From Clostridia bacterium (lineage in GTDB: Bacteria > Bacillota > Clostridia > Oscillospirales > CAG-272): 64,000 bases of DNA. Every line of letters starts with the position of its first letter. Positions within the stretch are counted from its first letter, which is position 1. The notes beneath the pieces were generated by a model that was not told the DNA's origin, did no database searches, and saw only the letters and a program-made list of their open reading frames with translations. The stretch covers positions 1-64,000 of the forward strand of contig JAFQDK010000038.1 of NCBI GenBank assembly GCA_017399305.1. The letters are read 5' to 3'. The position numbers and the translations under genes are program-made. This document shows, one piece after another, positions 7,738 through 63,587 of this stretch.

Positions 7738-10700
7738 TTATTTTATCGAAAGTTTGATAATACGTACAACGTCAATCATATTGACTTTGCCGTCGCCGTT
7801 TACATCGGCATCTACAGGCTTTTTATTCAAAATGGCATTGAGCGTAAGCAATGCATCACCAACAGTAATTACTTCATTGCCGTCAACATCGCCGACAATG
7901 TTGGGGGTAAGCTCTTCTTCGCCGGTGGATACAACCACAACTTGCTCACGAGCCATATTTGCAGTAAATGTTATCTCATAAACATCGCTTTCAGGAGATG
8001 CGCCACTGTTAGCAAACGGAAGCGCGGATGCATCCTTAGCAATCTTTGTAACAGTGGCAAGCTTGCCATTTACAAGTGCTGATGTTACAGGCACATCAGA
8101 GTGAACACGAACCGTAACACTGCGCTCGGTATAATCTGTTGCAAATTCACCGTCTGTCACGCCGATATTTATGGTAGAAATTACACCCTCTGTAGTAACG
8201 CTTACATCCGTGGTGCGGAACTCGCCGTCAAGATAGCTTTCTGTTGCGCCGTCGTCCTCATAAAGAGTTGCACTTCCCTCTCCGAGACCGTAGACATTGA
8301 GCGAAACATTCTGCCAATCTGCACCGGAAAGAGGAGATTCAACAGCGGATGAAAGGACTACAGCTCCGCTTCGAACATAGATAGGCGAAGAATATACATC
8401 CTTTGTAACGGTAATTGTCTTAGGTCCTGTGATGACCTCGCCTGTGAACACGTCTATCCATTCGCCGTCAGGGATAAATACGCTTCTTGTGGATTCATCA
8501 GCCTCGGTAACAGGGTCATACACAAAGTGAAGCTGTGCCTTGGCAGCCGCCTCATAATACTCTATGACGATATCATAGGTTACGCCTGCTTTAAGTACAT
8601 CTGTCGTATTCATATCAGAGTCGGCAAACAGATTTGACCACGAGCCGGCAAAAAGCTCACCGTTGATAAAGATTCGTCCGCCGTCGTCAACGATAAGTCC
8701 GATATAGCAATCTACCTCAGGGGTGATCGTGCCGGTGTAGCGTGCAGCAAAATAGTCTGCATCCACTCCGTTTGGCGACCACTGATCCCAGAAGTTGCTT
8801 ATCTCTGAAACGGTTTCTGTATAAGCGGGAGTACCGTCAAAGTAGTTGTTCTTTGACAATCCCTCAATGTCATAATATGCGCCATCAAGTCCGTTTTCGC
8901 CCGCAGAATTCTTAAGCCATGATGACGGAACCACCGAAGTACCGTCACCGGGAGTGCCGTTAAACGGTGCAACAAGGATATCCTTACCCAGCAGATACTG
9001 AGTATTGTCCTTTGACTCCTCATATTCAGGATAGTGGAAATCAAGTCTGCGGATAAGCGGCATACCTGTCGCATGGTTTTCGTATGCAAGTGCGTAAGTA
9101 TACGGCATAAGGTGATAACGCATATGAAAATAATTGCGTACCGCCGTTTCCGCTACCTCAGTATAGCTCCAAGGATAGTGGGGATTCTTGGGGTTGATAT
9201 CCGAATGAACGCGGAGTGACGATGCGAACGCGCCAAACTGCATCCAACGGATAAATGCGTTTTCTGAAACGGTATCGTTGTTTCTAAAGCCGCCAAGGTC
9301 AGCCGAGATATATGGGCTGCCACCGACCACACCGGAAACTACCGTATTCTCGATTTCTCTGCCGAGCTGCAAAACGTCGCCGTAAATGTCGCCCGACCAC
9401 TGCATACCGTAGCGATGACCGATTACCGACGGGTCGCCCTCGATAAATCCGTGGCGTAACCAATCGGCATTGGTGAGCATAAGCACACGCTGTCCGTATT
9501 CACCTTCGACGGCGGAATCTGCATTATATTTTGCCATGGTGTCATAGTAGAGTACCTGACCGAGTGTGGAATAAAGAACATTGGTATAAGGCGATTTTAT
9601 TGTATACGACCAGTTGCGGTCATACCACCAGCCGTCAAGTCCCATTTCCATAAGCTTTGAAATGTTTGCACACTGCCACTTGAGTTCTGCCGGCGTGAGA
9701 ATTGTCATTGAAGTGTTGTGAGTATGGTCATTGAAGAGGACAAACACGCCTGCCTCCTGAGCTTTTGCAAGGAAGCCCTCCATATCAGGATAAAGCTCGG
9801 TATTTGTTTCATATCCTGTACCGTCAGTATTTGAGCGCCACTCTGTGTCAATAACAATTACATCAAGCGGAACATCGCGGTCACGGTATTCCTCAATCAT
9901 TGCAAGCTTTTGCTCATCTGAGAATTTTGACCAGCGTGAATACCACGAACCATGGAATTTGATATCCGACATCATGGTACTGCCCGTAAGCGTTACAAAA
10001 TCCTGTCTGAGCTTTGCGCTGTCACCATTGGTTGCAACTACATAATAATCAATATTATCGCTGACTGTCCATCCGCTGTTTTCTGCTTCACTGCCAACAT
10101 ATACCATGCCGCCCTCAGCAGGAACAACACCGTTGTCAACAAGTACATACACATCGGGAGTTTCGCTTGGAGCAGGAAGCGAAGAATAGAAGCCATGCTG
10201 ATATGAAGTGAAATAATCAAAGAGAATATTGCCCTCTTTGTCAAAAATCTTTACATCAGCAGCGGTTGCCCCCTCTAATGGAAGATTGATAACAAGCTTT
10301 GCAGTCTTGATTATTGCGGTTTCACCGTCATTGTCTACCGCCACTGCTGCACCGCCGAATTTTTCGCGATGAGGTACCATAAGAGTTTTTGAATCTACAA
10401 AGCTACCATTTACAGCTTCTTCAACGCGCACAGCAGTGTCAGAAAGCACAGTGATGCGCACATCACCATAGGTATATGAATGAATACCTGCCTCGCCAAA
10501 TGCCTTGTCAGTGTTCTTTGCAGTTACATTTTCCGCAATATATTTATCATTGTTGTAGCTTTCGATAGGATGAAGCTGCATTTCGCCCTGCATAAGGTCG
10601 GCAATAGTATTTGCGACATTGGGAATGGAGGTATCAACGTAGAGATCTGCGGTATATTTACCGTGGTATCTTACGCCGATGTAATTGGAAATACTGCCGC

Positions 10701-12978: not shown

Positions 12979-13015
12979 TGTTATGACCATTCCTTTCTTA
13001 GAAGCACGTAACTTT

Positions 13016-15394: not shown

Positions 15395-15459
15395 ATCCTT
15401 TCCTCCCATAATATCATTTTCTAGTTTAATAGTAACATGAAAAAGCACTTTTGAAAATC

Positions 15460-47400: not shown

Positions 47401-47694
47401 GAAAGTGCGCTTGAGCGCAAGGGCTTTATCTTTGATGCTGAAGCTATCGCCGGCATGATAGACCGCACTGCAGACAAAAAATTCATAAAAAAACTTATTG
47501 AGAAAAGCGGCGATGAAGTTTCTGCCCTTTTTGACACTGTAAAAGAAAGCATTACAAACGTTGCATGCGACATGCGCGCCGGCAAAATTGATACATATGA
47601 CACGGCGACAGGGCCTATGGCTCCTTGCCGTTACTGCGCTTACGCACGCATATGCCGTAAAGAAGATTTGAAAGGAGAGGATGGCAATGGCTAA
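44455..47694 (+). CDS. addB: Helicase-nuclease subunit AddB (RexB-like, no Walker A)
   Basis: A 1079-residue AddB-type subunit of the double-strand break repair helicase-nuclease. The C-terminal PD-(D/E)XK nuclease has VSDYKTGKK (Asp905, Lys907) and the iron-sulfur cysteines Cys746 and C1058-x2-C1061-x5-C1067. The N-terminus reads LLYGTRAARDEIF where AddB usually has a GxxGxGKT Walker A, so it cannot bind ATP there, as in RexB. It still shows VPDQKALLAENALM. It is coupled at both ends (TAATG upstream, 8-base overlap with addA). The AddA partner provides the motor. Confidence 0.85.
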   Translation: MLTLLYGTRAARDEIFSLIAKDVADGRRAYLIVPDQKALLAENALMNYLPKSAALLVDAVGFSRLANLVSRRYGALTYQYANDGAKSLTMYRAIKKLTPYLHVFGGEMQSGTLDALCSLMGEFRACSIKSNDLDLAANALGDSPLAEKLRDLALIYTEYETILHERFCEQADDIDTLCDLLAENDFFGDSHVYIDSFISFTKQETTVLSHILSRGSNVTLALPFSRVGAHMAECADTRKKLLSLCAKLSVEVEEKYTYSNDPEPLEFAKENLWDLSCEDKFEGSTKGCLELYKCADKNEEVSLCLGEIFKALQNGNSYSDIAIIARNAENYSGTLDRALDRCGIPFFFSKKSSAELLPLTRLILSALSLYVYNFKQSDVAAYIKTGLVGLSDDECDVFEEYTDRWNICGRHRYLDGDDFTMSGQGYTAEVTDMATLEEINEIKRKIASPLSRLCDSLDGARTVRDFSTAIYEYLSETEIREKSADANFVKFFGTDKSADAIRLWNMTMEALDTMVEAAGDEETTASDFCTLVRLLFSSIDIAEIPSSKDQIIIGSADTIRIDERKIVLIIGANEGIFPAPVSESPTLCESERNALKEVGVTLSQNLRLRSARELYHFVRSIDFATDKAVISYYLSDIDGSKREPSFAISRLKKLFPALEKCSYTALALTDRVFYPTSAADAIGVYGDEAEKVLKATLSEKGMYTPPIKDVTALGNAYSAISSDIAKDIYGDSMRLSQSKIDTYSDCRLRHFMQYIINLEDTAPFEFNPANTGTFVHSVLENFLGAVKSGGKRIADLEEDEIEMLASTLCAAETEKIMRSAAGKNARMLCFFDRMKRSIILILRSLVNEFKNSSFEPFLLEYRIGSGGHKPLSVTLPDGAEVSLNGIADRIDICKQDGKVFLRVSDYKTGKKPFSEADLKKGKNLQLLIYLFSLCYVADKHFFDLVGVDKTDDIVPASVTYFVVKPPKISLDTPPTEDITPDAESALERKGFIFDAEAIAGMIDRTADKKFIKKLIEKSGDEVSALFDTVKESITNVACDMRAGKIDTYDTATGPMAPCRYCAYARICRKEDLKGEDGNG

Positions 47695-50600
47695 TTTTAC
47701 CAAAGCGCAAGAAAAAGCCATATCAGAACAATCAAAAACTCTCCTTGTTTCTGCCGCAGCAGGCAGTGGTAAAACCACAACTCTCATTGAACGAATAATC
47801 CGTTCTGTCGCACGCGATGAAAACCCAATCATGCTTGACCGCTTGCTTGTGGTCACTTTCACAAAAGCTGCTGCAAGTGAGCTTCGCCTACGTATATCCG
47901 CCACCCTCTCCGATGCTATCGCAAAAAACGGTGGCAGTGAAGTTCTTGCAAAGCAATTTACTTTACTGAGTTCGGCAAAAATATCAACTATTGACAGCTT
48001 TTGCCTTGACCTTGTTCGCACAAACTATGCAACGCTTGGGCTCTCTCCATCATTCAGAATTGCTGATGACGGTGAATCTACTTTGCTTGCAAACGAAACC
48101 ATGGACATGCTCATAAATGAGTGCTATGACGATCCGAATAGCAAGCTCTGCGGCGGCGCAGAGGGATTTGCCGCTCTTGTCGACCTGATTGTCGGATCTG
48201 CAGACGATTCCCGTCTTTGCGACACTCTGCTATCCCTTTATGAAACTCTTTCATCATATCCTGAAGGAGCATCTGCACTCTATGATTGCGAAGCACTTCT
48301 ACGCGAATATGCCAAGCGCGATTTCTTTGAGTGCCCTCACGGAAAAAGAATCGAAAAGCATCTATCAGATGTATTCGAATACTTCAAAAAGGGATATATC
48401 CGCGCCCTTGATATAATACAAAGCGATGCCGCACTTGCAAAAGCATATGAAGTGGCATTTGCAGCCGATCTGCACGGTATTATCGAGGCGGAATCCGCGC
48501 TGAAATCAGGATATGCCGAAGGACGTGAAGCCATAAGCAAAATCGCCTTTGCACGACTTGGTTCTTTCCGCGGTGAGAAAACAGATGAGATTGAATTCGT
48601 TAAGGAACTGCGCACAAAATACAAAGATCAGATACAAAAAAGCATAAGCGGATACATAGCGTCCGATGCAAAAACCATCAGCAAATGCCTTATCGAAACT
48701 GCAGATGTCTGCCACTCGCTTGCCGAATTTCTCTGCGAATACGAGCGTCGCGCAGAAGCCGAAAAAAAGCGCCTTGGTGTTTGCGATTTTGACGACCTCA
48801 GTCGCTATACGCTAAGACTGCTTGTTGATGAAAACGGCAATGACACCCCTTTTGCCATATCACAAAAAGAGCTTTACGATGCAGTTTATATTGACGAATA
48901 TCAGGATGTAAACGCCGTGCAGGACCGCATATTTTCTGCTATTTCAAAGACAACCAACCGCTTTATGGTTGGTGATATCAAACAGAGCATATATGCTTTC
49001 CGCGGTGCTGAACCCACTATCTTTGCAAATCTCAGAAGTGAGTACCCGAATATCGAAAATGCAGGAAACAGCGACAATGCCACTATTTTCATGAGTGAAA
49101 ACTTTCGCTGTAGCAAAGAGGTGATCAACTTCACCAACATGATATTCGACAAACTGATGCCACTCGTTTCGCCTGACATGAACTACAAGGAAAGCGATTC
49201 GCTGGTTTTTCGCAAGAAATGCGAAACCGACCGCGCTATCCCTGCTGAAATCGTAATAACAGAAAAGCCGCCCAAGGGCTCGCCCGATGAAAACATGAAC
49301 ACCGAGGCTGACTTTATCGCGCGTGAAATATGCCGCCTTGTAAACAATGAAGTCAAGGACAACGGGGATAAGATCAGTTATGGTGACATAGCTATTCTGA
49401 TGCGTTCACCACGCGCAAAGATGGACATTTTTGCCGGCACGCTAAATGCGTACGGAATTCCCGTATACACTGAAACCAACGAAAATCTACTGCATCAAAG
49501 TGAGGTTGAGATAATCATTTGTCTGCTTGAGGCAATTGACAATCCTCGCCGCGATATTGCACTATGCGGAACACTGCTCTCCCCTATTTGCGGATTTGAC
49601 TGTAACTTTGTTGCCGCTCTTCGCAAAAACATACATGGAGAAAGATTATACACCACGCTGAAAAACTACATATCAAGCGATACACCGGACAGCGAAGAAA
49701 AGAGAAAGGCAACTTTCTTTGTAAATCAGCTTTCCGATTTTCGCCGTATGGCACGCTTCATGAGTGCAGGCGAAATGATTGACGAGGTTTATAACCGATA
49801 TGCTGCATATGCAAGGCTTGGTGCTTCGTCACCGCTCCGCCGTGCTAACCTTGAAAGATTGCGCCATGTTGCTTACTCTTTTTCGGGCGGTGCGCCACGC
49901 AGTCTTTCAGAATTCCTTCGATACATAAGAAATATCGAAAACAACGGCAAGACCCAACTTGCCGCCGCGCGTCCCGGTCTTGATACGCCTGATGCGGTAC
50001 GCATAATGAGTGTGCATCAATCAAAAGGTCTTGAATTTCCCGTTGTATTCTTTGCAGATACTGTTAAAGACTACAATCTGCAGGATGCCGCCGCATCACC
50101 GCTGTATTCAGGCAGTGCGGGATTTGGCGCAAAACTGCGCGATGACAGCGGATTTTGCGTATACGATACGCTTCTTAGAAAATCCATTGCGTTACACATC
50201 ACGCGTGCCACCAAAGAAGAGGAACTGCGACTGCTATACGTTGCACTGACACGTGCGCGCGAACGGCTTTACATGACAGCAATGCATCAAACCCCCGGCA
50301 AACTTATATCTGCCGCAAAAACAGAAAGCGAATTCTTAACCGAATACTCTGCTGTAAAGCTGACCAATCATATGTCGCTGGCACTGCTTGCGGCATGCGG
50401 AGAGGAAACTGAGTATCTAAAAATCCGAACAGTGCCATACGCACCTGCCAAGATAAATGAAAAAACCCAAGAAGAGCTATCAGTTGAAGAAACAGTATCG
50501 GTTGACATGGATGCAGTGAAGTTGCTGAGCGAACGTTTTGAATATCACTATCCGCACACAGCACGCTCGAAAATTCCCGCAAAACTTGCGATATCGCGCC

Positions 50601-51241
50601 TTTATCCTGATATCCTCGATGACACTATCTTAAGTGACACCATTGAGCAAAAAAAGCTTCCTAAAGCGGTTATAGCGCCAAAGTTTATTGAAAACACAGA
50701 AAACAGCGCGGCAAAGCGCGGCACTGCCACGCATTTGTTTATGCAATTCTTTGATTTTGACAATGCGGCAAAAAGCGGGGCGCGTGCTGAACTTGAACGG
50801 CTGACTAAAAAACACTTTATCACACCGGATGACTCTGCACTTGTCAACCTTGACGAAGTAGAAGTCTTCTTAAAATCAAAGCTGTTTTCCGACATGCGTG
50901 AAGCAAAAACCATATACCGTGAGCAACGTTTCAACTTGAATCTCGATGCTTCTGACTTTGCAAATGACGAAGGATTAAAAGCTGAGCTTTCGGGTGAAAA
51001 TGTTCTTGTGCAAGGTGTTATCGACTGCTTTTTCTATGATCAAAACGGCGATATTATCCTTGTCGACTATAAGACAGACCGCGTGTCAAAGTCTAACCGA
51101 GCCGAAGCTGAAGCCAAACTAAAAGAAGCGCACAGCGAACAGCTTGGCTACTATGCCCGTGCCATTGAAGAAATCTGCGGCAAAGCGCCAAAATCCACGC
51201 TTATATACTCACTTTGTCTTGGCGACACAGTTGAGATATAA
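47687..51241 (+). CDS. addA: Helicase-nuclease subunit AddA (UvrD-like)
   Basis: A 1184-residue SF1A helicase with C-terminal nuclease. The Walker A is VSAAAGSGKTTTL near residue 25. VYIDEYQDVNAVQDRIF is motif II and IMSVHQSKGLEFPVVFF motif V, with ALTRARERLYM motif VI. The C-terminal PD-(D/E)XK domain has VQGVIDCFFYDQNGDIILVD then YKTDRV. The second ATG (47687) has better spacing from GGAGAGG than that at 47681. It overlaps addB by 8 bases. Together they resect double-strand breaks and load RecA. Confidence 0.93.
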   Translation: MANFTKAQEKAISEQSKTLLVSAAAGSGKTTTLIERIIRSVARDENPIMLDRLLVVTFTKAAASELRLRISATLSDAIAKNGGSEVLAKQFTLLSSAKISTIDSFCLDLVRTNYATLGLSPSFRIADDGESTLLANETMDMLINECYDDPNSKLCGGAEGFAALVDLIVGSADDSRLCDTLLSLYETLSSYPEGASALYDCEALLREYAKRDFFECPHGKRIEKHLSDVFEYFKKGYIRALDIIQSDAALAKAYEVAFAADLHGIIEAESALKSGYAEGREAISKIAFARLGSFRGEKTDEIEFVKELRTKYKDQIQKSISGYIASDAKTISKCLIETADVCHSLAEFLCEYERRAEAEKKRLGVCDFDDLSRYTLRLLVDENGNDTPFAISQKELYDAVYIDEYQDVNAVQDRIFSAISKTTNRFMVGDIKQSIYAFRGAEPTIFANLRSEYPNIENAGNSDNATIFMSENFRCSKEVINFTNMIFDKLMPLVSPDMNYKESDSLVFRKKCETDRAIPAEIVITEKPPKGSPDENMNTEADFIAREICRLVNNEVKDNGDKISYGDIAILMRSPRAKMDIFAGTLNAYGIPVYTETNENLLHQSEVEIIICLLEAIDNPRRDIALCGTLLSPICGFDCNFVAALRKNIHGERLYTTLKNYISSDTPDSEEKRKATFFVNQLSDFRRMARFMSAGEMIDEVYNRYAAYARLGASSPLRRANLERLRHVAYSFSGGAPRSLSEFLRYIRNIENNGKTQLAAARPGLDTPDAVRIMSVHQSKGLEFPVVFFADTVKDYNLQDAAASPLYSGSAGFGAKLRDDSGFCVYDTLLRKSIALHITRATKEEELRLLYVALTRARERLYMTAMHQTPGKLISAAKTESEFLTEYSAVKLTNHMSLALLAACGEETEYLKIRTVPYAPAKINEKTQEELSVEETVSVDMDAVKLLSERFEYHYPHTARSKIPAKLAISRLYPDILDDTILSDTIEQKKLPKAVIAPKFIENTENSAAKRGTATHLFMQFFDFDNAAKSGARAELERLTKKHFITPDDSALVNLDEVEVFLKSKLFSDMREAKTIYREQRFNLNLDASDFANDEGLKAELSGENVLVQGVIDCFFYDQNGDIILVDYKTDRVSKSNRAEAEAKLKEAHSEQLGYYARAIEEICGKAPKSTLIYSLCLGDTVEI

Positions 51242-51291
51242 AAACAACCTATATCTTTGTTAAAAAATCGCATATTTTGTCAAATTAACAA

Positions 51292-51320
51292 TTGCATTTA
51301 ATTGAATTGTAAAGTATAAT
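51292..51320 (+). promoter_or_regulatory. Promoter of the split transketolase operon
   Basis: TTGCAT (51292-51297), 17-bp spacer, TATAAT (51315-51320). Confidence 0.7.
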
Positions 51321-51360
51321 AGTTTTGTAGTGATTTTAAACCCTACTAAAAGAGGTAATT

Positions 51361-52182
51361 ATGAACAACGAAAAACTTGCTATGCTTAAAGAAAAAGCCA
51401 CTCTTGTCCGCAAGGGCATAATTGAGGGAACCCACGCTGCTGGCTGTGGTCATCCCGGCGGCTCACTTTCTATCACAGATATTGTCACATATCTCTACTT
51501 TGCCGAGATGAATATTGACGTGAAAAACCCAAAAATGGCTAATCGCGACCGCTTTGTTATGTCCAAAGGACATGCGGCGCCCGCGCTCTACTCCGTTTTG
51601 GCTAATCGCGGTTTCTTCCCTGTAGAAGATCTTAAGACACTGCGCAAAACAAACAGCTATCTTCAGGGTCACCCCGATATGAAGGGCATCCCCGGTGTTG
51701 ATATGTCTACCGGTTCGCTTGGCCTTGGTATCTCTGCTGCATGCGGTATGGCTCTCGCGGCAAAAATCAATGACGAAAGCTACCGTGTATACTGTGCAGT
51801 TGGCGATGGCGAAAGCGAAGAAGGTCAGGTCTGGGAAGCAGCTATGTTTGCGGCTCATTACAAACTCGACAATCTAACTGTATTTATCGACTTTAACGGT
51901 CTTCAGATCGACGGTAAAGTAACAGACGTCATGAACCCCACTCCTCACGACACCAAATTTGAAGCATTTGGCTGGAATGTCATCACAATTGACGGTCACA
52001 ACTTTGAAGAGATCGAAAATGCTGTAAACGCCGCTAAGGCATGCAAGGGTAAGCCTACAGCCATTATTGCAAACACCGTTAAAGGTAAGGGTGTTTCATT
52101 TATGGAAGGCAAAGCTTCTTGGCATGGCAAGGCCCCCAATGATGACGAATATGCTATAGCTTTAACTGATCTTGATAAATAA
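51361..52182 (+). CDS. Transketolase, N-terminal subunit
   Basis: A 273-residue subunit carrying the thiamine diphosphate-binding half. It shows GTHAAGCGHPGGSLSITDI, SKGHAAPALYS, TGSLGLGISAACGMALA, the TPP motif VGDGESEEGQVWEAAMFA and DFNGLQIDG, and VKGKGVSFMEG. It forms an active enzyme with the next gene product in the pentose phosphate pathway. Splitting is common in Clostridia and archaea. AGAGGTAATT precedes the ATG, and 14 bases separate it from the C-terminal subunit gene. Confidence 0.93.
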   Translation: MNNEKLAMLKEKATLVRKGIIEGTHAAGCGHPGGSLSITDIVTYLYFAEMNIDVKNPKMANRDRFVMSKGHAAPALYSVLANRGFFPVEDLKTLRKTNSYLQGHPDMKGIPGVDMSTGSLGLGISAACGMALAAKINDESYRVYCAVGDGESEEGQVWEAAMFAAHYKLDNLTVFIDFNGLQIDGKVTDVMNPTPHDTKFEAFGWNVITIDGHNFEEIENAVNAAKACKGKPTAIIANTVKGKGVSFMEGKASWHGKAPNDDEYAIALTDLDK

Positions 52183-52196
52183 GGAGGACAAAAACA

Positions 52197-53141
52197 ATGG
52201 CTGAAAAGAAAGCAACCAGAGAAGCCTACGGCGATGCACTCGTCGAATTTGGCGCTACTAATAAAAACCTTGTTGTCCTCGACGCAGACCTTGCAGAGGC
52301 TACAAAAACATGCAAGTTTAAGGCTGCATACCCTGAACGTTTCTTCGACTGCGGTATCGCAGAGGGTAATATGATGGCTGTTGCAGCAGGTCTTGCCGCA
52401 TCGGGCATGGTTCCATTTGCTTCCAGCTTTGCAATGTTTGCAAGCGGCAGAGCATTTGAACAGGTTCGTAACACTATCGGTTATCCGCACCTCAATGTTA
52501 AAATAGGTGCTACACACGCAGGAATCACCGTCGGCGAAGACGGCGCAACCCATCAGTGCAACGAAGATATCGCTCTTATGCGTACTATCCCCGGTATGAC
52601 CATTATCAATCCTGCAGACGCAGTTGAGGCAAGAGCCGCTGTTAAAGCTGCAATTGACTTCAAGGGTCCTGTATATATGCGCTTTGGCAGATACGCTGTC
52701 CCCACTTTCAACAATGACAGCTATGAATTCGAAATTGGCAAAGGCATTGAGCTTTGCGACGGTAAAGACGTAGCAATTATTGCAACCGGCCTTATGGTAA
52801 GCATGGCAATGGAAGCGGCTGAAATGCTCAAGGAAGACGGCATCAATGCTCGCGTTATTAACATTCACACCATCAAACCAATTGATGCCGAGATCATCGT
52901 TAAAGCGGCAAGAGAAACCGGTGCTATAGTAACTGCCGAGGAACACAGCATTATCGGCGGTCTTGGAAGTGCAGTTGCAGAAGTGCTTTGCGAAAAATGT
53001 CCTGTTCCCATGCTTCGTGTAGGCGTTGAAGATAAATTTGGCAAGAGCGGTCAGGTTCCCGAACTGCTTAAAGAATACGGTCTCACTGCTGAGAACATTG
53101 CAAAAAAAGCAAAAGAAGCTATCAGCTTAAAGCTTAACTAA
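52197..53141 (+). CDS. Transketolase, C-terminal subunit
   Basis: A 314-residue subunit with the pyrimidine-binding (TPP-partner) domain. It shows REAYGDALVEFGATNKNLVVLDADLAEAT, FFDCGIAEGNMMAVAAGLAASG, FAMFASGRAFEQVRN, HAGITVGEDGATHQ, and the C-terminal transketolase domain DVAIIATGLMVSMAMEAA. Glu in CGIAEGN is the catalytic acid that activates TPP bound in the partner subunit. AAGGAGGAC precedes the ATG. The two genes form one operon ended by a strong terminator. Confidence 0.93.
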   Translation: MAEKKATREAYGDALVEFGATNKNLVVLDADLAEATKTCKFKAAYPERFFDCGIAEGNMMAVAAGLAASGMVPFASSFAMFASGRAFEQVRNTIGYPHLNVKIGATHAGITVGEDGATHQCNEDIALMRTIPGMTIINPADAVEARAAVKAAIDFKGPVYMRFGRYAVPTFNNDSYEFEIGKGIELCDGKDVAIIATGLMVSMAMEAAEMLKEDGINARVINIHTIKPIDAEIIVKAARETGAIVTAEEHSIIGGLGSAVAEVLCEKCPVPMLRVGVEDKFGKSGQVPELLKEYGLTAENIAKKAKEAISLKLN

Positions 53142-53361: not shown

Positions 53362-56300
53362 TTAATCTACCTTTTTGAGATATTCTGCAGCAGCATCACT
53401 GTATGCAAGAGTAGCACGGCACACAGCCTTGAGTGCTGCGGGATTCGATATTCCCATAGCAAGAATTGTTTCGTCGTCTGCCGCAAGTACTGTTGCAGCA
53501 TAGGACTCGAAGCTTGTGGTAACAGTGGGGGATACCTGAGTATCGCCAATGTAAAGTGCACCGGTGAATTCCTGTCTGAGATCCTTGGCTGAAACTGTAT
53601 CAATATCTACGCAAAGACGTGTCTTGCCATCTTCGGTTACTGTATACATATTCTCACCGGAAATGTCAATAAATATCTTTGCTCCATTGATGTTTCTGTA
53701 ATTTCCTTTGAAGACAAGATTGCTTGTGTCAATATCTCCAGTTGCATCAAATACAAGTGTCATAAGTATGCGCTGTTCAAGCACTGCAAACTGGTTGTAA
53801 GGTGTATAAAGCTGACCTTCTACCGCCTCACCTATAACGCTTGAATTATCAGCATCAACATCTGTAACGGTATAATCTATAATCGCATCTGCAGGAATAT
53901 GCTCTGTTACGAGATTGTCCGCATTGTAATTGAAGTATGTCTGTGCGGCTGCACCGTAATTGAACATAGCATCAAGAACTTTCTTGAGTGCTGCATCACT
54001 GTTTGCCATTACATTATAGTAAGTTACAAGATTGTACTGCTTAGTGGGAGACTTGTAGCATACGCCGTCCTTGACATAATAATATGTGCCGGAAATAGTA
54101 TCATTCATTTCCTTGCCTGCAATACCGGGAACTTCAAAGCGCCACTTTCCGTCAACCTCTACAGGCTCAACGGTTACAGGCTCTTCTCCACTCTTTTCAA
54201 ATACCATCCAGCATTCGGAAACAGCAGAATCAACCTTTACTACATACTCAAGAACATACTCACTGAGAAGCGTTACGCCAAGAGAGAATCCCTGTTTAGC
54301 TTCAATAAATTCGATTTCTTCGGTCTTTGTACCGCTACATATCGAACATGTGTAAGTAACAATGCCCTTAGCATTAGGAGTAGGATTAGTGGTTACTACA
54401 CCCTCATCCCATTCACAGTTGCCGTCCTCAGTAGCACCGCAAACTGTACATGTGTGGGTGTGGGTTTCATCACCGTTGTATGCATAGTCGCCGTATGAGT
54501 GGTTGCCTGTTGCGGGAACCACCTCGGCGGTCTGGGTATAGTCACAGTGCATGCACTTGTATACCGCAGTGGAACCGTCCTTGCCGCAGGTAGGAGCAAC
54601 CGCTTCCGCAATAAGAACAGTCACAGTGTGGTTTCTCGTCTGTACATATCCGCAGGTCTTACATGTGCGTGAATGCTGGGTGTCGCTTACAGATGCCCAG
54701 TTTGTAAAGCCGTGCGATGCAGTAGAGGTTCTGCCGCATGTACATGTAGAGATATGAGTGCTGTCGTCATTCTCATCCCATGTTGTAAATGTACACTCGT
54801 TTGTAACATTCTCGGTAATGGTAAGATTTGTAGCTGTTGCCCCCTGGTTAACAGGATCAGTCAAGGTATATACAAATCCGTGAGTACCGTAGGAAACAGT
54901 TGCTTTTGTTTCCTCTTCCTGAACAGTACCGTTCATATAGAATGTAATATCTGTTGTAAGAGGAGTTGTTCTGCCATCCTTCTCAAGCGAAACATTTACA
55001 GTTGTATCGAGAACATTTGTAATGTCGATAGTTCCGCCTGTGGTATGAGAATTAGCATTGAGATTGAGAACAAGAGAAGCAAGGCTGTCAGTAACATCCG
55101 TTGTATCTTTGTTATAGCCGTTAACATTGGATGAACCTGTACGGAGCTGATAAAGCTCTGTATTGTCACTTAGATTTATGGTTGTATGACAATTTTCGGT
55201 AGTAACTCCGGTGACATTTGCATTGGTAGAACGTGACATTGCATTAAGCGTTCTGATGCTTGTTGCCACTTCACCGTTGTCGACAGTTTCAAGCTCTATT
55301 GTCTTATTCTCAACAGTAAACGGTCCTGTGTCATCCTTGATCCAGCTTCCGAGAACAACATTATAATAGAAGCTATCGGTAATATTTTCACCGTTGGTTA
55401 CACCGTACAGCTTAATCTTTGAAGTTGTAGCAGTGGTGTTGCTTGCATTGGGATAATACTCACCTGCGCAAATTATTGCACGTGCATAAGTATTAGCGGA
55501 GATATTCTGCATTGTAAGGTTGTGATAATTTGCTTCAAAGATAATATCTGAGCTTCCGCTTGTCGTTCCGACAAAGGTTACACCGTTATACTTGAGATTA
55601 CCGCGCTGAGTAATTCTTACGCCGTCTTTTGCGATATTGATTGTGCCGCCTTCAATGTAGATAGTATTTACCCAATCCTCAGCAAAGCTTACACTTGCAG
55701 AAAGATTATAGTCACCGACAATTTTAATATGTCCTGCAACCTTATGCAAACGGTGAACGGCTTCTTTAAGTGTCTTTACGGGAGTATCTGTAGTGATACC
55801 ATCATTTGCATCGCTGCCGTTATCATCGTCTACATACACGGTCGGCAACGAACCTGTATGCTCAACATAATGTTCACCGCAGGTAAGACAGGGGATGTAA
55901 TATGTGCTGCCCGACTTTTCCCATACGTAGTCATACTCATGAGGTACAGAAACTTCTGCAGAAACTGCTGTAGTTTCTATCTCATCCTCTGCAATATTGT
56001 AGCTCTGCGCATCATAAACCTCAATAATATGAACAGTATCGTGGTCAATATCGCTCACATCAAATGTGAGAGTAATAACCACAGTCTTTGTAACCTTTGC
56101 ATCTGCTGCAGGATTATTGAGAAGTGCAACTGTATAAGGCAGTGTGAGACCGCTTGTAACAGTAGCAGTGAGACCTGTGCCAGACTCTACAGTAGGAAGT
56201 TTGACCTCCGCCTTGGTAAGTTTGAATCCGTCAGGAGCGTTAATCTTGAAGGTAGCACCTGCAATAGCAGTAGTTGACTTATATGTAAAGTCTACGCTGA

Positions 56301-59300
56301 GAGTGCCGTCCTTCGATGTTGCAGGAACCGCTGCCGCAACTGCGGGAGTTGTGGGAGCACTGAGAGTGCATCCGTCTGCACAGTAATATGTGCCGTCAGC
56401 CTTTACAACATATGCATGCTCATGATATACCGCTTCTGTTCTGGTTCTGCCGCATTCAACACAGGTATATGTGATTACGCCTGCCTTACTTACTGTAGGC
56501 TTTGTGGTAATAACACCTTCGTCCCAATCACATTCGGGGTCGACATTCTCGGTAACAATGTAATTTGTCTTATTGATATTGCCTGTATTACCTTGCTCAA
56601 AGATAATATCATCACCAAACGAAGCAAGGAAGCCGTGTCTACCGTAGTTGAGAGTAACATTTGCGGTTGTGTTGGTGTCATTGAACGTACCGTTCTTGAA
56701 GAAGAACAGTCTGTGAATGAGAGGCTCTGTACGTGTGCCCTCGCCCTCGTAATCGTCAATGCCATCCTCGTCGGAAACGTTGATTACAGTGTTTTCAACG
56801 TTTCTGATATAGAATCTGCCGCTGTTTTCGAAAGTAATATCATCGGATGTACCTGCAGTAGCATTTGTACTTCCGTCAACGATATTGGAGTTGTCGTTGA
56901 AGTTGATATAGAGATTGTCGAGATGTGCATTACCGTCGGTAAATGTCATTTCAACTTTATTGCCGCTTGCATCTATAACAGTATCCGTGCCTGCTTCGCC
57001 TACGTTACGGAAACCGGAGCCAAATGCATGTACGCCTGTGTTATCATTAAGATTAACAATAGAAGTACAATTATCGGTGTATACATCCTCAAGTATCTCA
57101 GAGGTGGACATTGTATACAGGAAGTAAATCACAGCATCAAGTGTACGTGTGGTAGCATTTTTACCTGCATAACCGTCTTGAACATTAAGAGTAACCGTCT
57201 TGCTTGAGATTGTTGTTCCGTCAGGACAATCAACCGCAAATGCACTTCCGAGATAAACTCTCTCATAGAAGTAGCCGCGGAACTTGGAGGAACTTGTAAT
57301 AGCAGGACCGTCGATATTAACAGTAGTAGATATTTTAGTGCTGAGAGTTGCAGAATCTGCTTCCTCACCGTAAAGTCCAGCAAGAAGATAACATGTTGCG
57401 CCATTCTGTGAACGGATATATCCCATGTCAATATCGTTCCAGTTTGCAGAGATTATTACGCGGTAGTTTTCTTCGTCACCAGCCTTGAAGAGAAGGTCGT
57501 CAAATACTGCCTTACCGCCCATAACAAGCTGAACATCCATGGTCTTTATAAGGAAGCCTGTAGTTACTGAGCCGTATGAATCGTGGTATGAATCCCCTGC
57601 AGTAAATGTGATTGTATTGTCACCCCAGTCAGGAAGAATAACATCGTCATCGAGTACAATACCGCCGCAGATTGCAACAGTACCGCCAACATCTGCAATG
57701 CGGTTAACTGCCTCGTAAAGTGTACGAACCTTCTTTTCAGGTGACATACCTGTATTTACATCAATACCTACTTCTGAGCTGTTGCCGACATATACTGTGG
57801 GCTTGCTTGCCTGATGCGCATATGTCTCACCGCACTTAGAACAGGTGAGGTAATACTGCTTAGCAGATGAATCATATGCCCACTTATAGGTTTCATTTGA
57901 GCTATGCTCATCGTTGCAAGTATTTGTATACTGAGTAAGTACAGGTGTATTGAGTCCCATATACCATGCACTGGTCTTTACCATCGTTTCAACGCCAATA
58001 GCAATATCAGTGTTTGTGAGGTTAGGAACATCCAAAAGCTGAGCCTTGGTATCGCCGTTATCCTTAGCGGCTGTACCGTAATAGTTGCGAGTAAATGTAT
58101 GCTGTGTATTGTTTGCGCCTACCGCTACTCTACCAAAGGATGCGCGGATATAGTTTGTATCGCTGGAAGCGCTTCCGCTGACCTTGCTGGTAGACATGGT
58201 ATTGATAATGGAGATAGGTCCTTCGAAGCTTACACGTCCGGCAATACCGCCGACGTCAGTACCGCTGCCGGTTACCGAAATCGCGCCCTTGCTGTATGCA
58301 TCCTTAAGAGTGAGAGATGCTTTTTCGTTTGCGTAGCTACGGAGATAACCTGCGATACCGCCGGCATATGCATAGCCTGCAACTACCTTGTTTGTGTTAT
58401 AAAGTTCGGATACAGTAACAGGAACGGAAGTGGTAGATACAAGGCCGAAGATACCGCCGGCATTCTGTCCTGCAACCTCGCCAGCATACTCATCTGTTGC
58501 TGATGCGGTTATAACACCGGTGTTAGAGCACTTGGATACTGTCTGCTTACCGGTTGCGGTAAAGTAACCACGATTGTAGTAAGAACCGATGATACCGCCG
58601 GCATATGCACCGGTAGTAACATTTCCGGTATTCTTACATGTAGAAAGTGTAAGCGTTGTATCTTCCTGATTGCTTACAACACCGATAATACCGCCTGCAA
58701 AGTCATATATACCGGAAATAGCACCGCTATTGGTATTGCCGGTAATAGTAATCTTGTTGCCTGTGAGGGTACTTGTTGCATCGTTATTATCAACCTGCAG
58801 TCTGCCGATGATACCACCGATACAAGTCTGACCGTTTATTGCACCGCTATTTGTACAGTTTGTAACCTTTAATACATTGTTGTTAGAAAGTATTGCTACG
58901 CGGCCAATGATACCGCCGGTATCTGTTTCTTCATAGTGGTCACCGTAAAGTGTTGCTGATGATGTACATTTATCAACAGTAACAGTTGTGCCTGTAACCG
59001 GCGACGTTGCAAAAGGAAGTCTGTCGGCAGTTGTACGGATACGGCCGATGATACCGCCGACATGGCCATTGCCGGAAATTGTTCCGTCAACTTTACAGCT
59101 TGAAATGGTTGCAGCCTTGCTGTTTGCGCTGAACAAAAGATCACCGATGATGCCGCCAGCGCGTGCGCCTGTAGATCCAACAGTTGCATTTGTTACAGTG
59201 CAACCGCTGACGGTAACAGGAGCATATGCAATACCGATAAGAGCGGCGGATGCGTCCTTACCGCTGACATATGCATCTTTGATATTAACATTCTTCACAG

Positions 59301-62300
59301 TTGCATTCTTGACAACTCCAAAGAGACCTGCACCTGCCTCGGTTGTCTGAACGATATTAAGGCCGGTAACAGTATAACCCTGACCGTCAAATACACCTGT
59401 ATAAGGTGTATCATTGTTACCGATAGGCTGCTGACCTAAAACACCTGTAAGGTCGATGTTTGCATCAATAACGCAATCATGGTCCCAAAGATTTTCCTGA
59501 GTCATGAAGATAAGCATTTCTTCTACGTTTGAGATAGCGTAGTCGAATTCGTTGCTACATGCACATACGCCGTCAACATATACATGCTCATGGAATGCCT
59601 TAAGCATAGGAGCAGGTGCTTCGGATGTGCCTTCATTTACCCAGTTGGTCTTGCCACAAAGTCCTAAAAGACCGCCTGCGGTATTACCTGTGTTGCGGTA
59701 ATACTTATGGTTTTCGGTGATATATGAAGGAACGCTTGTGACATACTTGGTTCCTACTGCATTGTAGATATTGTTGGTAACAAGTGTTACAGCAGTACCG
59801 GTTGTAGTGGAATTACCTACTCTACCGATGAGACCTGCGTTGGTAGAAGCACCTGCACATACAGTAGCGCCTGCATGCATACAGTCCTCAAAGGTTACAG
59901 GGGCATTGCCGCTTGCATCTGCCTCCTGAATTCCGAGATAACCGATAATACCGCCGAGTCTGCCTGAAGCAGAAGAACTTTGGGTGGTAATGATACCCTT
60001 ATTGAGAAGTTCGGTGAATACCGCTGTAGCATGGAAAGGAGTTTCCTGCTGACCGACATAGTTGAAATATGCACCGAGTATACCGCCGGTAAATGCGTTT
60101 GATGTAACATTACCGTAGTTTGCACACTTGCTGATGGTGAACGTATTGGTGCCGGTTGTTCCAGAATAGTTGAGGAAGCCGTAAATACCGCCCGCAACGT
60201 TATTGGAAGTGGTAACATTACCGTAGTTCTTACAGTTTGTAATGCTCATGGTAACGCCTACAGAAGATCCGCTTGTACCGCCTGCAATACCGCCGGCAGA
60301 GTGTTTTGCCGTGATGTCGCCGTAGTTAATACAGTTGTCAATTGTGTTAGTAACACCGTCTACGAATGCAGTGTAACCCACAAAGCCGCCGACAAACTGT
60401 GAAGATGTACATGTAACATCAACATAAGATACACAATTTGTAATAGTGAAATCTCTACCGTATCCGATAAGGGCAGCAACATTATTGCCGCCGGAGGTAG
60501 CAGTAGAGGTAACCTTACCCTTGATGGTAAGATTCTTGATTTCTGCGCTTACAGCGTGACCGAAAAGAGCAATGTTAGCAGTATCGCCCGAAATATTGAT
60601 ACCGCTGATGGTAAATCCGTTACCGTCAAGACTACCGCTGAAGGTTTTGGTGGAATTACCGATAGTAGTCTGCGTATAGCCTGTGAGGTCGATATTTGCA
60701 ACAAGCTTGTAATCCTTAGCCCACAGATTAGTGCTTCCTACAGCCTGATTGTTCATGAGGAAGATGATTTCTTCCGCTGTAGCGATTTCTTCATCAAAGA
60801 TAGAAACTCCGCACGCACAGATACCTGTTGTTCCAAGATCATGGTCGTGAATAAAATCAAGCTCGGGCTTGCCGCTTGCATCGGTTACCCAGGATGTCGC
60901 CGCCGCAAGAAGTGCAAGACTGTCATCTGAGGAAGCGCTATTGCAATTGTATGCAAGATTTACAACATTGCCGTTTTTATCGGTAATCTTGCTGGTAGTG
61001 GTATTATTTATTATGCTTGCAAAATTGCTGATAATAGCAGTTCCGGTCTCATTGTACATGCGCACAATTGAGAACATGCCCATTACATCAGAGCTTCCGC
61101 CAAGAGTGCCAATCATTCCGTCTGTACCGGAAGCTGTGTTCTGCCAGTCGGACATAGTAACAGGAGCCTTGCCATTATCGCCGAGTAGCGGTACACGGAA
61201 AATACCGATGATTGCGCCATCATATGCAGAATCGGTTGTGACAGTAATCTTTCCGCTATTATAAAGCTCGGTCATAGATGTTGTAATGTCGTAAGCATTA
61301 CGGCTACCGAGATATGTACTGATGATACCTGCAGCGCAGTCGCCGGCTGAAGTAATAGCCGCATAGTTTGCACACTCATTGATTGTGAACTTGCCGCCTG
61401 CAGGACAGTTATAGCCAATAGTACCGAGAATACCTGCTGCAGAGTTGGTAGTAGCGTTTACTGTGCCGTAGTTGCTGTCACGAAGGAGACTTATAGTACC
61501 GTTTACGGGGTAAGCATCAGTACCGGAAACCTTGCCGCTGTAAATGTAACCGACAATACCTGCAACTCGCTGAACACCCTCGATTGCACCGTGGTTTATG
61601 CAGTCATTTATCGAAATTGACTGACCGTCATGCTGAACCTTGGATGCACCGACAATACCGCCGACAGCACCAACTGTGGCTGTAACATCCACGTATGAAA
61701 CAACGTCTTCAATAACGAGTGAGGGGCCGATATCCCAACCAACGAGACCGCCGGTATAGTTTCCGGAACCTGTAACCGTACCGTCAATAGTCAGGTTCTT
61801 GATAGTCGCACCTGAAACGACGCCGAAAAGGCCGGTATATGATGAGGTCGAAATATTAATACCGCTGATAGTGTGGCCGGCACCGTTAAACGTACCGGTA
61901 AAAGCATTTGCTCCTGCACCTGTACCTATAGGCTTCTGAGTGTAGCCTGTAAGGTCGATGTCTGCAGTGAGTGTATACTTTCCACCCCAGAGAGAGGAGT
62001 CATTCATAAGTGCAACAAGCTCGGACGCGGTGCCGATTTTACCGTCTGCAACTGACATACCGCAGCTACATACGCCGCTTACAAATGTATGAGAATCATG
62101 GGGCGCGATAGCAAGAGTAACAACTCCGTCAACGCCAGTTTCCCAGAGTGAATTTGCAGCAAGAGAAGAAAGCTCTGCATCGCTCGAATTTACATTACAG
62201 CTATCTGTAATAGTAACTGTATTGCCGTTGATAGTTGCCTTCGTGCTATTTACTGTGCCCAAGGCTGAACGGATTATCTTTGCGCCGACCGCGTTATAAA

Positions 62301-63405
62301 GACGGGTTGCAGTGATAACTGCCGCAGGCTGAGCCTCAGTAGTATCTGTCGCCGCTGCAGGAGCACCAAAACAGCCGAGGAGCGCCTCAGAAGTATCTGT
62401 ACCTGCATGCATCCAGTCGGAAATAGTAATAGGTGCTACATTATTTGTACCAAGCACGGGAATTCTGATGATACCCGCTATACCGCCAGAGCGAGTTACA
62501 ACAGTAGCGTTGATATTTCCCTCGTTATAAAGGCCTGTGAGTGTTACGCTTGATACTCGGCTATGGTTTGCCTGAAGATATCCGCCGATAATACCTGCAA
62601 CGTAGTCAGGACCGGTAATATCTCCGTAGTTTGCACAATTTTTGATATTGAGAACACCCTCATCGGTGGTGTTTGCATAGTCGTAGTAGCCAAGGATACC
62701 TGCAACAACATTACCTGTTGATGTAACGTTTCCGTTATTGATACAACCTGTAACGGTAAGTGTACTTGCCTGGTTCGCGCCTGAGACACCTCCGACACGT
62801 CCGATAAGACCGCCGACATACTTAAAGCCGCTTACAGTGCCGTTGTTTACACAGTTTGTAACAGTAACAACATCACCTGCGGAAATAAACGCAATATGTC
62901 CGATAAGACCACCGACGTCACTTCCGTCTGCGGTTACGTTGATGCTGGATTTGACATTTGTAAGAGTAAGGCTGTTTCTCGAACGACCAATAAGACCGCC
63001 GACAAAAGCATCATTATTACCGGAACCCGGATAATATGTACTCTTAACAGCACCGCTTACTGTGAGGTCCTTGATAGTTGCGTTTTTAGTCGCGCCAAAA
63101 AGACCTGCATAAGCAGTCGTAGCCGAAATGTTGATACCCTTAATGGTTTTATTATTACCGTTAAAGGTACCGACAAAAGGAGTCGAGTTACTACCGATAG
63201 GCGTTTGAGTCTGTCCGCTCATATCAATAGTAGCCGAAAGAGTATAGGTGTTACCTGCGCCCCACTGAGATGAATCCTCCATAAGTGCGACAAGGTCCGC
63301 TGCTGTGGCAATAGTGTACTCAGCCGCGCCTGCATATACTGCAAGTGCAAGTGTGAGTGCTGCTATCATCATAGCAACAAGAAGTATACGTAACTTCTTT
63401 TTCAT
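53362..63405 (-). CDS. Giant secreted GLUG-repeat surface protein with cohesin-like module
   Basis: A 3347-residue exported protein. The ATG at 63405 (MKKKLRILLVAMMIAALTLA, signal peptide) has AAGGAG 9 bases upstream. Four cassettes of about 420 residues (starting ~32, ~453, ~873 and ~1287) each open with an ADLVALM...YTLTADIDLTG...PIG unit, run through GLUG repeats (GGIIGR, GNVTS) and end in a His/Cys motif such as GVCSCG. Two VYVDDDNG-type beta-helix regions follow (~1868-2288, ~2512-2868), with a cohesin-like module between them (~2350-2487). Then CxxC segments (CTVCGATED) and a C-terminal domain with NYGAAAQTYFNYN. There is no LPXTG or SLH anchor. Probably an adhesin or scaffold. Confidence 0.82.
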   Translation of the reverse strand: MKKKLRILLVAMMIAALTLALAVYAGAAEYTIATAADLVALMEDSSQWGAGNTYTLSATIDMSGQTQTPIGSNSTPFVGTFNGNNKTIKGINISATTAYAGLFGATKNATIKDLTVSGAVKSTYYPGSGNNDAFVGGLIGRSRNSLTLTNVKSSINVTADGSDVGGLIGHIAFISAGDVVTVTNCVNNGTVSGFKYVGGLIGRVGGVSGANQASTLTVTGCINNGNVTSTGNVVAGILGYYDYANTTDEGVLNIKNCANYGDITGPDYVAGIIGGYLQANHSRVSSVTLTGLYNEGNINATVVTRSGGIAGIIRIPVLGTNNVAPITISDWMHAGTDTSEALLGCFGAPAAATDTTEAQPAAVITATRLYNAVGAKIIRSALGTVNSTKATINGNTVTITDSCNVNSSDAELSSLAANSLWETGVDGVVTLAIAPHDSHTFVSGVCSCGMSVADGKIGTASELVALMNDSSLWGGKYTLTADIDLTGYTQKPIGTGAGANAFTGTFNGAGHTISGINISTSSYTGLFGVVSGATIKNLTIDGTVTGSGNYTGGLVGWDIGPSLVIEDVVSYVDVTATVGAVGGIVGASKVQHDGQSISINDCINHGAIEGVQRVAGIVGYIYSGKVSGTDAYPVNGTISLLRDSNYGTVNATTNSAAGILGTIGYNCPAGGKFTINECANYAAITSAGDCAAGIISTYLGSRNAYDITTSMTELYNSGKITVTTDSAYDGAIIGIFRVPLLGDNGKAPVTMSDWQNTASGTDGMIGTLGGSSDVMGMFSIVRMYNETGTAIISNFASIINNTTTSKITDKNGNVVNLAYNCNSASSDDSLALLAAATSWVTDASGKPELDFIHDHDLGTTGICACGVSIFDEEIATAEEIIFLMNNQAVGSTNLWAKDYKLVANIDLTGYTQTTIGNSTKTFSGSLDGNGFTISGINISGDTANIALFGHAVSAEIKNLTIKGKVTSTATSGGNNVAALIGYGRDFTITNCVSYVDVTCTSSQFVGGFVGYTAFVDGVTNTIDNCINYGDITAKHSAGGIAGGTSGSSVGVTMSITNCKNYGNVTTSNNVAGGIYGFLNYSGTTGTNTFTISKCANYGNVTSNAFTGGILGAYFNYVGQQETPFHATAVFTELLNKGIITTQSSSASGRLGGIIGYLGIQEADASGNAPVTFEDCMHAGATVCAGASTNAGLIGRVGNSTTTGTAVTLVTNNIYNAVGTKYVTSVPSYITENHKYYRNTGNTAGGLLGLCGKTNWVNEGTSEAPAPMLKAFHEHVYVDGVCACSNEFDYAISNVEEMLIFMTQENLWDHDCVIDANIDLTGVLGQQPIGNNDTPYTGVFDGQGYTVTGLNIVQTTEAGAGLFGVVKNATVKNVNIKDAYVSGKDASAALIGIAYAPVTVSGCTVTNATVGSTGARAGGIIGDLLFSANSKAATISSCKVDGTISGNGHVGGIIGRIRTTADRLPFATSPVTGTTVTVDKCTSSATLYGDHYEETDTGGIIGRVAILSNNNVLKVTNCTNSGAINGQTCIGGIIGRLQVDNNDATSTLTGNKITITGNTNSGAISGIYDFAGGIIGVVSNQEDTTLTLSTCKNTGNVTTGAYAGGIIGSYYNRGYFTATGKQTVSKCSNTGVITASATDEYAGEVAGQNAGGIFGLVSTTSVPVTVSELYNTNKVVAGYAYAGGIAGYLRSYANEKASLTLKDAYSKGAISVTGSGTDVGGIAGRVSFEGPISIINTMSTSKVSGSASSDTNYIRASFGRVAVGANNTQHTFTRNYYGTAAKDNGDTKAQLLDVPNLTNTDIAIGVETMVKTSAWYMGLNTPVLTQYTNTCNDEHSSNETYKWAYDSSAKQYYLTCSKCGETYAHQASKPTVYVGNSSEVGIDVNTGMSPEKKVRTLYEAVNRIADVGGTVAICGGIVLDDDVILPDWGDNTITFTAGDSYHDSYGSVTTGFLIKTMDVQLVMGGKAVFDDLLFKAGDEENYRVIISANWNDIDMGYIRSQNGATCYLLAGLYGEEADSATLSTKISTTVNIDGPAITSSSKFRGYFYERVYLGSAFAVDCPDGTTISSKTVTLNVQDGYAGKNATTRTLDAVIYFLYTMSTSEILEDVYTDNCTSIVNLNDNTGVHAFGSGFRNVGEAGTDTVIDASGNKVEMTFTDGNAHLDNLYINFNDNSNIVDGSTNATAGTSDDITFENSGRFYIRNVENTVINVSDEDGIDDYEGEGTRTEPLIHRLFFFKNGTFNDTNTTANVTLNYGRHGFLASFGDDIIFEQGNTGNINKTNYIVTENVDPECDWDEGVITTKPTVSKAGVITYTCVECGRTRTEAVYHEHAYVVKADGTYYCADGCTLSAPTTPAVAAAVPATSKDGTLSVDFTYKSTTAIAGATFKINAPDGFKLTKAEVKLPTVESGTGLTATVTSGLTLPYTVALLNNPAADAKVTKTVVITLTFDVSDIDHDTVHIIEVYDAQSYNIAEDEIETTAVSAEVSVPHEYDYVWEKSGSTYYIPCLTCGEHYVEHTGSLPTVYVDDDNGSDANDGITTDTPVKTLKEAVHRLHKVAGHIKIVGDYNLSASVSFAEDWVNTIYIEGGTINIAKDGVRITQRGNLKYNGVTFVGTTSGSSDIIFEANYHNLTMQNISANTYARAIICAGEYYPNASNTTATTSKIKLYGVTNGENITDSFYYNVVLGSWIKDDTGPFTVENKTIELETVDNGEVATSIRTLNAMSRSTNANVTGVTTENCHTTINLSDNTELYQLRTGSSNVNGYNKDTTDVTDSLASLVLNLNANSHTTGGTIDITNVLDTTVNVSLEKDGRTTPLTTDITFYMNGTVQEEETKATVSYGTHGFVYTLTDPVNQGATATNLTITENVTNECTFTTWDENDDSTHISTCTCGRTSTASHGFTNWASVSDTQHSRTCKTCGYVQTRNHTVTVLIAEAVAPTCGKDGSTAVYKCMHCDYTQTAEVVPATGNHSYGDYAYNGDETHTHTCTVCGATEDGNCEWDEGVVTTNPTPNAKGIVTYTCSICSGTKTEEIEFIEAKQGFSLGVTLLSEYVLEYVVKVDSAVSECWMVFEKSGEEPVTVEPVEVDGKWRFEVPGIAGKEMNDTISGTYYYVKDGVCYKSPTKQYNLVTYYNVMANSDAALKKVLDAMFNYGAAAQTYFNYNADNLVTEHIPADAIIDYTVTDVDADNSSVIGEAVEGQLYTPYNQFAVLEQRILMTLVFDATGDIDTSNLVFKGNYRNINGAKIFIDISGENMYTVTEDGKTRLCVDIDTVSAKDLRQEFTGALYIGDTQVSPTVTTSFESYAATVLAADDETILAMGISNPAALKAVCRATLAYSDAAAEYLKKVD

Positions 63406-63587
63406 AGTGCATTTCTCCTTCAAATATATTAATTTTTTGTTATAATTATCTAAAGAATATATTTCATCCACTATACTTTTTATATTAATTTTACACCATT
63501 TTATCACCAAAATCAATGCAAAATATGCGTTATTTGTTCTTCTTTTTTTATAATATTATATTTTTTACATTCACTAAAGTAGCAAAT

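Follow-up and report, generated by a model that had tools for sequence, protein, structure and literature searches.

A divergent cohesin-related module in a giant surface repeat protein of an uncultured Clostridia genome

Cohesins and dockerins are the socket and plug halves of a bacterial surface assembly system, and the cohesin fold is a nine-strand jelly roll. The element considered here, called the module, is a stretch at positions 55945-56349 within a giant surface protein encoded in 64,000 nucleotides of a Clostridia bacterium (contig JAFQDK010000038.1; this whole stretch is the window, in which positions are counted, and its genome is G000). Several described systems lie close to it. 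In Ruminococcus, diverged cohesins are missed by hidden Markov model profiles (Pfam, CDD) and were recognised by other means (PMC11557425, in part). Within the same source, Paenibacillus guangzhouensis is credited with 28 monovalent cohesin-dockerin (Coh-Doc) adaptor scaffoldins, while proteins joining a cohesin to SLH or to Cu-amine-oxidase-like domains are listed as anchoring scaffoldins. Amy4 of the R. bromii amylosome unites a cohesin and a dockerin in one protein, for which a self-aggregation potential has been proposed (PMC5814915, in part), and the Limousia mucinolysome is a non-cellulosic gut complex (PMC12997984, in part). No description of the module family was found in the open-access literature searched.

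The reading put forward here, which is held to be moderately probable, is that the module represents a strongly diverged cohesin branch, specific to its genus, that is borne by surface repeat proteins of adaptor and terminal forms and can still bind dockerins. The stretch quoted in the original prediction is real: it is encoded on the minus strand (56349-55945) in an open frame and runs from TPAVAAAVPATSKDGTLSVD to TAVSAEVSV, residues 2353-2487 counted from the ATG or 2390-2524 counted from an upstream TTG. Its proposed resemblance to cohesins was borne out as homology, although PF00963, the Pfam cohesin family, misses the window copy.

The evidence includes a profile-profile comparison. Profile A1, built from 10 module copies of the window's genome, was aligned by hhalign to profile A5, built from 12 Pfam-type cohesins, with Prob 98.3 and E 1.3e-14 over 130 columns, end to end. 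The 12 cohesins stem from loci L117-L124 of Clostridia metagenome-assembled genomes (MAGs), several of them ruminant-gut by title; a first search of the genome contigs gave no matches, and a bridge alignment of four cohesins led to nine loci, eight of which supplied the 12 sequences. The true pair scored 86.4; none of 100 column-shuffled decoys exceeded 20.7, the reversed profile gave 16.0, and the window sequence alone scored 40.1 (Prob 89) against the cohesin profile. When a 26-row family profile was compared with 193 protein tiles, the top 23 (score >= 21.7) overlapped cohesins by their coordinates, the best non-cohesin tile scoring 21.0. A YNIAE-type motif near the C-terminal strand is aligned in register between module and cohesins, and the module, about 137 amino acids (aa) long, has the length of a cohesin.

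Searches of whole genomes connect the module to cohesins through intermediates. A1 found matches at E <= 1e-3 in 18 of 118 family genomes, the module's own included, and a PF00963 re-search covered 10 of the 17 others: of the 17 A1 matches in these ten genomes, 16 coincide with a PF00963 match, which passes the cut-off in 12 cases and stays below it in 4, the exception being G060:C169. One module copy, G119:C26 (A1 E 7.6e-33), itself passes the PF00963 cut-off with 24.1 bits. At the level of sequence profiles the homology of the module to cohesins is regarded as established, and a cohesin fold is probable.

The spread of the family is narrow. A single-sequence search of the window's genome yielded nine further module places (E 7.9e-22 to 3.5e-6), more than chance would give, and a profile search yielded 13 in all, one of them a fragment. 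Across six genomes of the genus, the profile search gave 28 places in four (G000 13, G118 7, G120 5, G119 3, G091 and G030 none); since one of these, G120:C65, is a Pfam-type cohesin, 27 modules remain. Copies of the genus score at least 44 bits with A1, one fragment excepted. The best scores outside it were 40.5 bits in an order sample of 394 genomes (E <= 1e-6) and 35.4 bits in the 118 family genomes; the outside matches examined were mostly cohesins by PF00963 or by A5, and L182 and L183 of the order sample matched part of the profile and fell below the A5 threshold used. These two samples, and one of 116 genomes used below, were drawn from larger groups. A tree was built from 25 modules and 46 family cohesins; a single branch with support 100/100 separates the modules from the rest. 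The fragments G119:C89 and G000:C3 were omitted from it; the cohesins were chosen with A5 from fetched loci by coverage and length, not each verified by PF00963, and the genus's SLH cohesins, the cohesins of G030 and G091, and G118:C100 lie outside the tree. Given the low scores beyond the genus and the tree split, the module is, in the samples searched and as far as sequence tells, a genus-specific long branch.

The proteins that carry it share a recognisable build. The 27 modules sit in 25 open reading frames (ORFs), two of which hold two modules with linkers (G000:C49, G118:C133). Eight ORFs leave their contig after the module (L021, L022, L097, L098, L101, L102, L106, L107), five of them within linkers of the CTHEN...TCTE type, which may break assemblies. 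Beyond the window, most sister modules are found in proteins with a dockerin of their own: it is present in 13 of the 17 module proteins whose C-terminus is complete, and in 10 of these 13 only 4-8 residues separate it from the module. The four complete proteins devoid of a dockerin are the window protein, G000:C37, G120:C30 and G119:C81. A Pfam scan of the 25 carriers (E <= 0.001 or 0.01) detected a catalytic domain in one, a GH43 in G000:C42, and the GLUG motif (PF07581) in three (G000:C22, G118:C74, G120:C81). GGxxG repeats occur in 21, the remaining four lacking their N-terminus, and by eye a signal-peptide-like start is seen in 18 of the 20 carriers whose N-terminal end lies inside the contig; L106 is without one, and the start sequence of L021 is visible too briefly. 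Such adjacency is shared with the cohesins of relatives: a dockerin comes straight after at least 13 of the 46, and after a further three as judged by eye, while the scaffoldin G009:C12 combines seven cohesins with a dockerin. The best reading of these architectures is that of two forms, adaptor-like with a dockerin and terminal without.

Dockerins abound in the same genomes. At E <= 0.01, 66 matches were counted in the window's genome (2.13 Mb, 64% complete), 50 in G118, 32 in G119 and 21 in G120, the four genomes to which the modules are confined, and 7 in G091 and 8 in G030, where none is found. Cohesins over the PF00963 cut-off number three in G118, one each in G000, G120, G091 and G030, and none in G119 (G119:C26 being set aside). 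Why a genome should encode dozens of dockerins with scarcely any cohesins is a puzzle. If the modules are counted as cohesins, the ratio of dockerins to cohesins in the four genomes falls from as much as 66 to about 4-11, an improvement that is suggestive, short of proof, because genome completeness is 53-84%. Among the cohesins of the genus, G120:C65 carries SLH domains (PF00395 1.1e-16, PF00963 1.1e-14) and G000:C27 combines a Cu-amine-oxidase-like domain with a cohesin; a search of the window's genome for an orthologue of the SLH cohesin was negative, returning only matches to the SLH half, the C27 cohesin and module copies.

The window contains a GH31 protein (minus strand, ORF 7738-13062; PF01055 E 1.9e-35, Dockerin_1 E 7.9e-08) that, as the original prediction had noticed, bears a dockerin. 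The proposal that it forms a specific scaffold-enzyme pair with the module was not supported: with 66 dockerins in the genome, 1.98 (about 2.0) are expected per 64 kb, with P(>=1) = 0.86, and one is observed, so that a special pairing was rejected and receives no specific support, dockerins being expected by chance in any 64 kb. The GH31 dockerin is a possible, non-specific partner of the module. To note, positions 7738-15448 hold two consecutive GH31 genes, only the first of which encodes a PA14 domain in addition to the dockerin. Elsewhere, dockerin-like repeats were seen right behind a signal-peptide-like start, at the N-terminal rather than the C-terminal end (L158/C35, L130/C11, L161/C51, L029/C27).

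Several observations weigh against the reading of the module as a diverged, working cohesin. PF00963 gives no match to the window copy at E <= 1, which leaves the curated Pfam cut-off unreached and is the outcome of one of the checks that had been suggested for it; of 10 module copies, it matches one (E 0.0035), below the cut-off. In the Protein Data Bank (PDB), phmmer with the window copy returned only 5mkd (E 0.93), and A1 retrieved no cohesin and two ferredoxins, which are judged to be chance matches as they cover a fragment only. A profile joining the window copy to the 12 cohesins (A4) did retrieve PDB chains, 22 in all with E <= 1 and 8.7e-5 as the best value; their names are those of cohesins, scaffoldins or anchoring proteins, apart from two called Endoglucanase, and they say little on the module because 12 of the 13 A4 rows are Pfam-type cohesins. 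The motifs NNPGIAS and SPVTLNW, near-invariant in the 12 relatives, are missing from the modules, and the stem of the module branch is long (1.04 changes per column). Finally, the cohesin shortage may be in part missing sequence, the window's genome being incomplete. The PF00963 cut-off governs detection and is not in itself a biological criterion; as the window copy fails to reach it, the module is filed as a cohesin-related branch and not as a plain PF00963 member.

The main rival grants the descent from cohesins and supposes that dockerin binding has been lost, the module now being a structural neighbour of the dockerin or a spacer between repeat blocks. The X module of X-dockerin pairs is a precedent for such a neighbour, and the narrow gap between module and dockerin, the long branch and the absent motifs of the Pfam-type relatives all fit. 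However, the four complete module proteins without a dockerin and the two proteins with paired modules and linkers do not, and Coh-Doc adjacency is seen with the cohesins of related genomes too, for which reason it is no sign of lost function; loss of binding is considered somewhat unlikely. Quite improbable is a head-to-tail binding of the modules to dockerins of the same protein class, giving a surface fibre or aggregate of repeat proteins instead of an enzyme complex. The near absence of catalytic domains among the carriers and their prevalent GGxxG repeats speak for it, as does Amy4 of R. bromii with its two halves and proposed self-aggregation (PMC5814915, in part), whereas the dockerins of module proteins resemble by eye those of the genome's other large proteins, and an inspection by eye, short of a formal test, showed no private code among the dockerins listed. 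The view of the module as an unrelated β-sandwich, Ig-like or carbohydrate-binding, was rejected as very improbable, for although weak NPCBM_assoc (0.026) and SpaA (0.13) matches, and not cohesin, top the Pfam list of the window copy alone, the hhalign match to cohesins is full-length, the decoys are clean and the YNIAE-type motif is in register.

If the module is a diverged cohesin that still binds, it would keep the task of gripping a calcium-loaded dockerin. Proteins with both halves would act as monovalent adaptors, their own dockerin inserted into an anchor and their own module free for the next protein. The window protein, being dockerin-less, would be a terminal receiver held at the surface, perhaps via its C-terminal domain, and would display one socket to the genome's dockerin proteins rather than serve as a dedicated GH31 partner.

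The layout of the window protein is given in the table below. Its length of 3347 residues, as originally stated, is reproduced by the ATG at 63405, a plausible start preceded by an AGGAG-type ribosome site (by eye); the alternative TTG at 63516 extends the product to 3384 aa (ORF 53362-63516), and the frame is uninterrupted over its whole length. The GGxxG-type repeats precede the module, CxxC motifs flank it on both sides, and TTG residues 1024-1186 are similar, at E 1.5e-6, to 3n6z, a chain of solved structure from a putative IgA1 protease. The order of module and VYVDDDNGSDANDG-type segment recurs in a paralogue with a C-terminal dockerin, G000:C13 (L023). A Pfam scan of the window protein gave nothing above cut-offs (best Peptidase_M26_N, 0.011): it showed no dockerin, the domain that an adaptor scaffoldin carries in the same protein, and no SLH, sortase-motif or Cu-amine-oxidase-like domain.

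Table. Features of the window, and LamG-phosphoesterase-dockerin genes elsewhere in its genome
Feature	Position	Strand	Remark
Giant surface protein ORF	53362..63405	-	3347 aa from ATG; signal-peptide-like start by eye
N-terminal half, 18 GG[LIVA][IVLA]G repeats	58200..63000, limits approximate	-	TTG residues 173-1756
Divergent cohesin-related module	55942..56352 (quoted stretch 55945-56349)	-	sequence and profile searches
Post-module segment including VYVDDDNGSDANDG	54900..55840, limits approximate	-	β-helix type by eye
C-terminal domain without Pfam name, YGAAAQxYFNY signature	53365..54306	-	profile searches
Type I dockerin, C-terminus of GH31 protein	7753..7893	-	one of 66 in genome
LamG-phosphoesterase-dockerin genes	L024 1664-3433 (C16), L028 249-2006 (C26)		window's genome
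LamG-phosphoesterase-dockerin genes	L093 887-2659 (C26), L094 98-1846 (C22)		window's genome

The last 314 residues of the window protein form a YGAAAQ-type domain, for which Pfam offers no meaningful match and which stands where 13 of the 17 complete sister proteins carry their dockerin. Of 116 family genomes, 32 have it, on large ORFs; in 23 of 29 ORFs from 30 fetched loci, no more than 40 residues lie between its end and the stop. Other genera have it as well, by profile, in proteins with a single Pfam-type cohesin: it follows the cohesin, with no dockerin detected, in L118 (after a signal peptide) and L188, and precedes it, again with no dockerin detected, in L065 and L043. With a three-row profile the link to L118 is weak (Prob 10.7; its score of 28.8 compares with 21.1 for the best of 100 shuffles); a seven-row profile, in which one protein accounts for two rows, makes it firmer (E 1.2e-8, as counted within the fetched loci). 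Within the genus, one fragment apart, seven ORFs possess the domain, three with a module (the window protein, C37 and G120:C30) and four without, which makes its tie to modules loose; G119:C81, the fourth dockerin-less module protein, lacks it. With low certainty, the domain might hold the window protein at the surface. In Clostridia MAGs, gene pairs were observed (L117, L118, L119, L123, L124) in which the gene for a protein with cohesin and dockerin precedes one for another cohesin protein; the latter ends in what by eye is a sortase-like tail (L119, L123), a YGAAAQ-type domain (L118) or a dockerin (L124); the second gene of L117 is cut off where such a tail would come.

Two further observations concern neighbouring genes. 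At four places a module-dockerin gene adjoins one for a protein of about 590 aa with LamG (PF13385), a calcineurin-like phosphoesterase domain (PF00149) and a dockerin, as established by Pfam scan for two of the four and by alike ends for the others; three of their dockerins have the form GERS-GD...VKGE, that of C22 being a variant. Positions 44455-53141 of the window hold an ordinary set of genes, an AddB/AddA-like pair followed by a transketolase in two adjacent genes.

Should the modules be working cohesins, the imbalance between dockerins and cohesins would be partly a failure of detection, and the surface complexes of such uncultured Clostridia would exceed their annotation, with repeat proteins among the building parts besides enzymes. 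A wider proposal, rather doubtful at present, is that the genus's own cohesin class, missed by standard models, builds a mostly non-enzymatic coat of Coh-Doc-joined GGxxG proteins, with giant dockerin-less proteins as caps or anchors and LamG-phosphoesterase-dockerin proteins alongside some. A separate class could also serve protein assembly, provided that it does not cross-react with known cohesins.

Compared with PF00963 scaffoldin cohesins, the module shares the length, the in-register full alignment, the company of many type I dockerins and a position next to a dockerin as in relatives, but its window copy escapes Pfam detection, it occupies a separate side of the tree and it has lost the motifs of its Pfam-type relatives. 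Like the diverged cohesins of Ruminococcus, it has departed too far for the Pfam model; the carriers here are, in contrast, mostly non-catalytic one-module repeat proteins and not multi-cohesin cellulosomal scaffoldins (PMC11557425, in part). The P. guangzhouensis adaptors resemble the sister proteins in pairing one cohesin-related module with a dockerin, in many copies per genome, whereas the window protein is dockerin-less and the N-terminal repeats take the place of what in that species are often glycoside hydrolases (PMC11557425, in part). G120:C65 (SLH) and G000:C27 (Cu-amine-oxidase-like) match the anchoring scaffoldin types listed there. Amylosome and mucinolysome are likewise Firmicutes cohesin-dockerin surface complexes beyond cellulose degradation, but their cohesins are directly recognised and their enzyme dockerins tested or modelled (PMC5814915, PMC12997984, both in part). 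What is new with respect to these systems, judged from sequence, is that a cohesin branch of its own is carried by repeat proteins that are for the most part non-catalytic.

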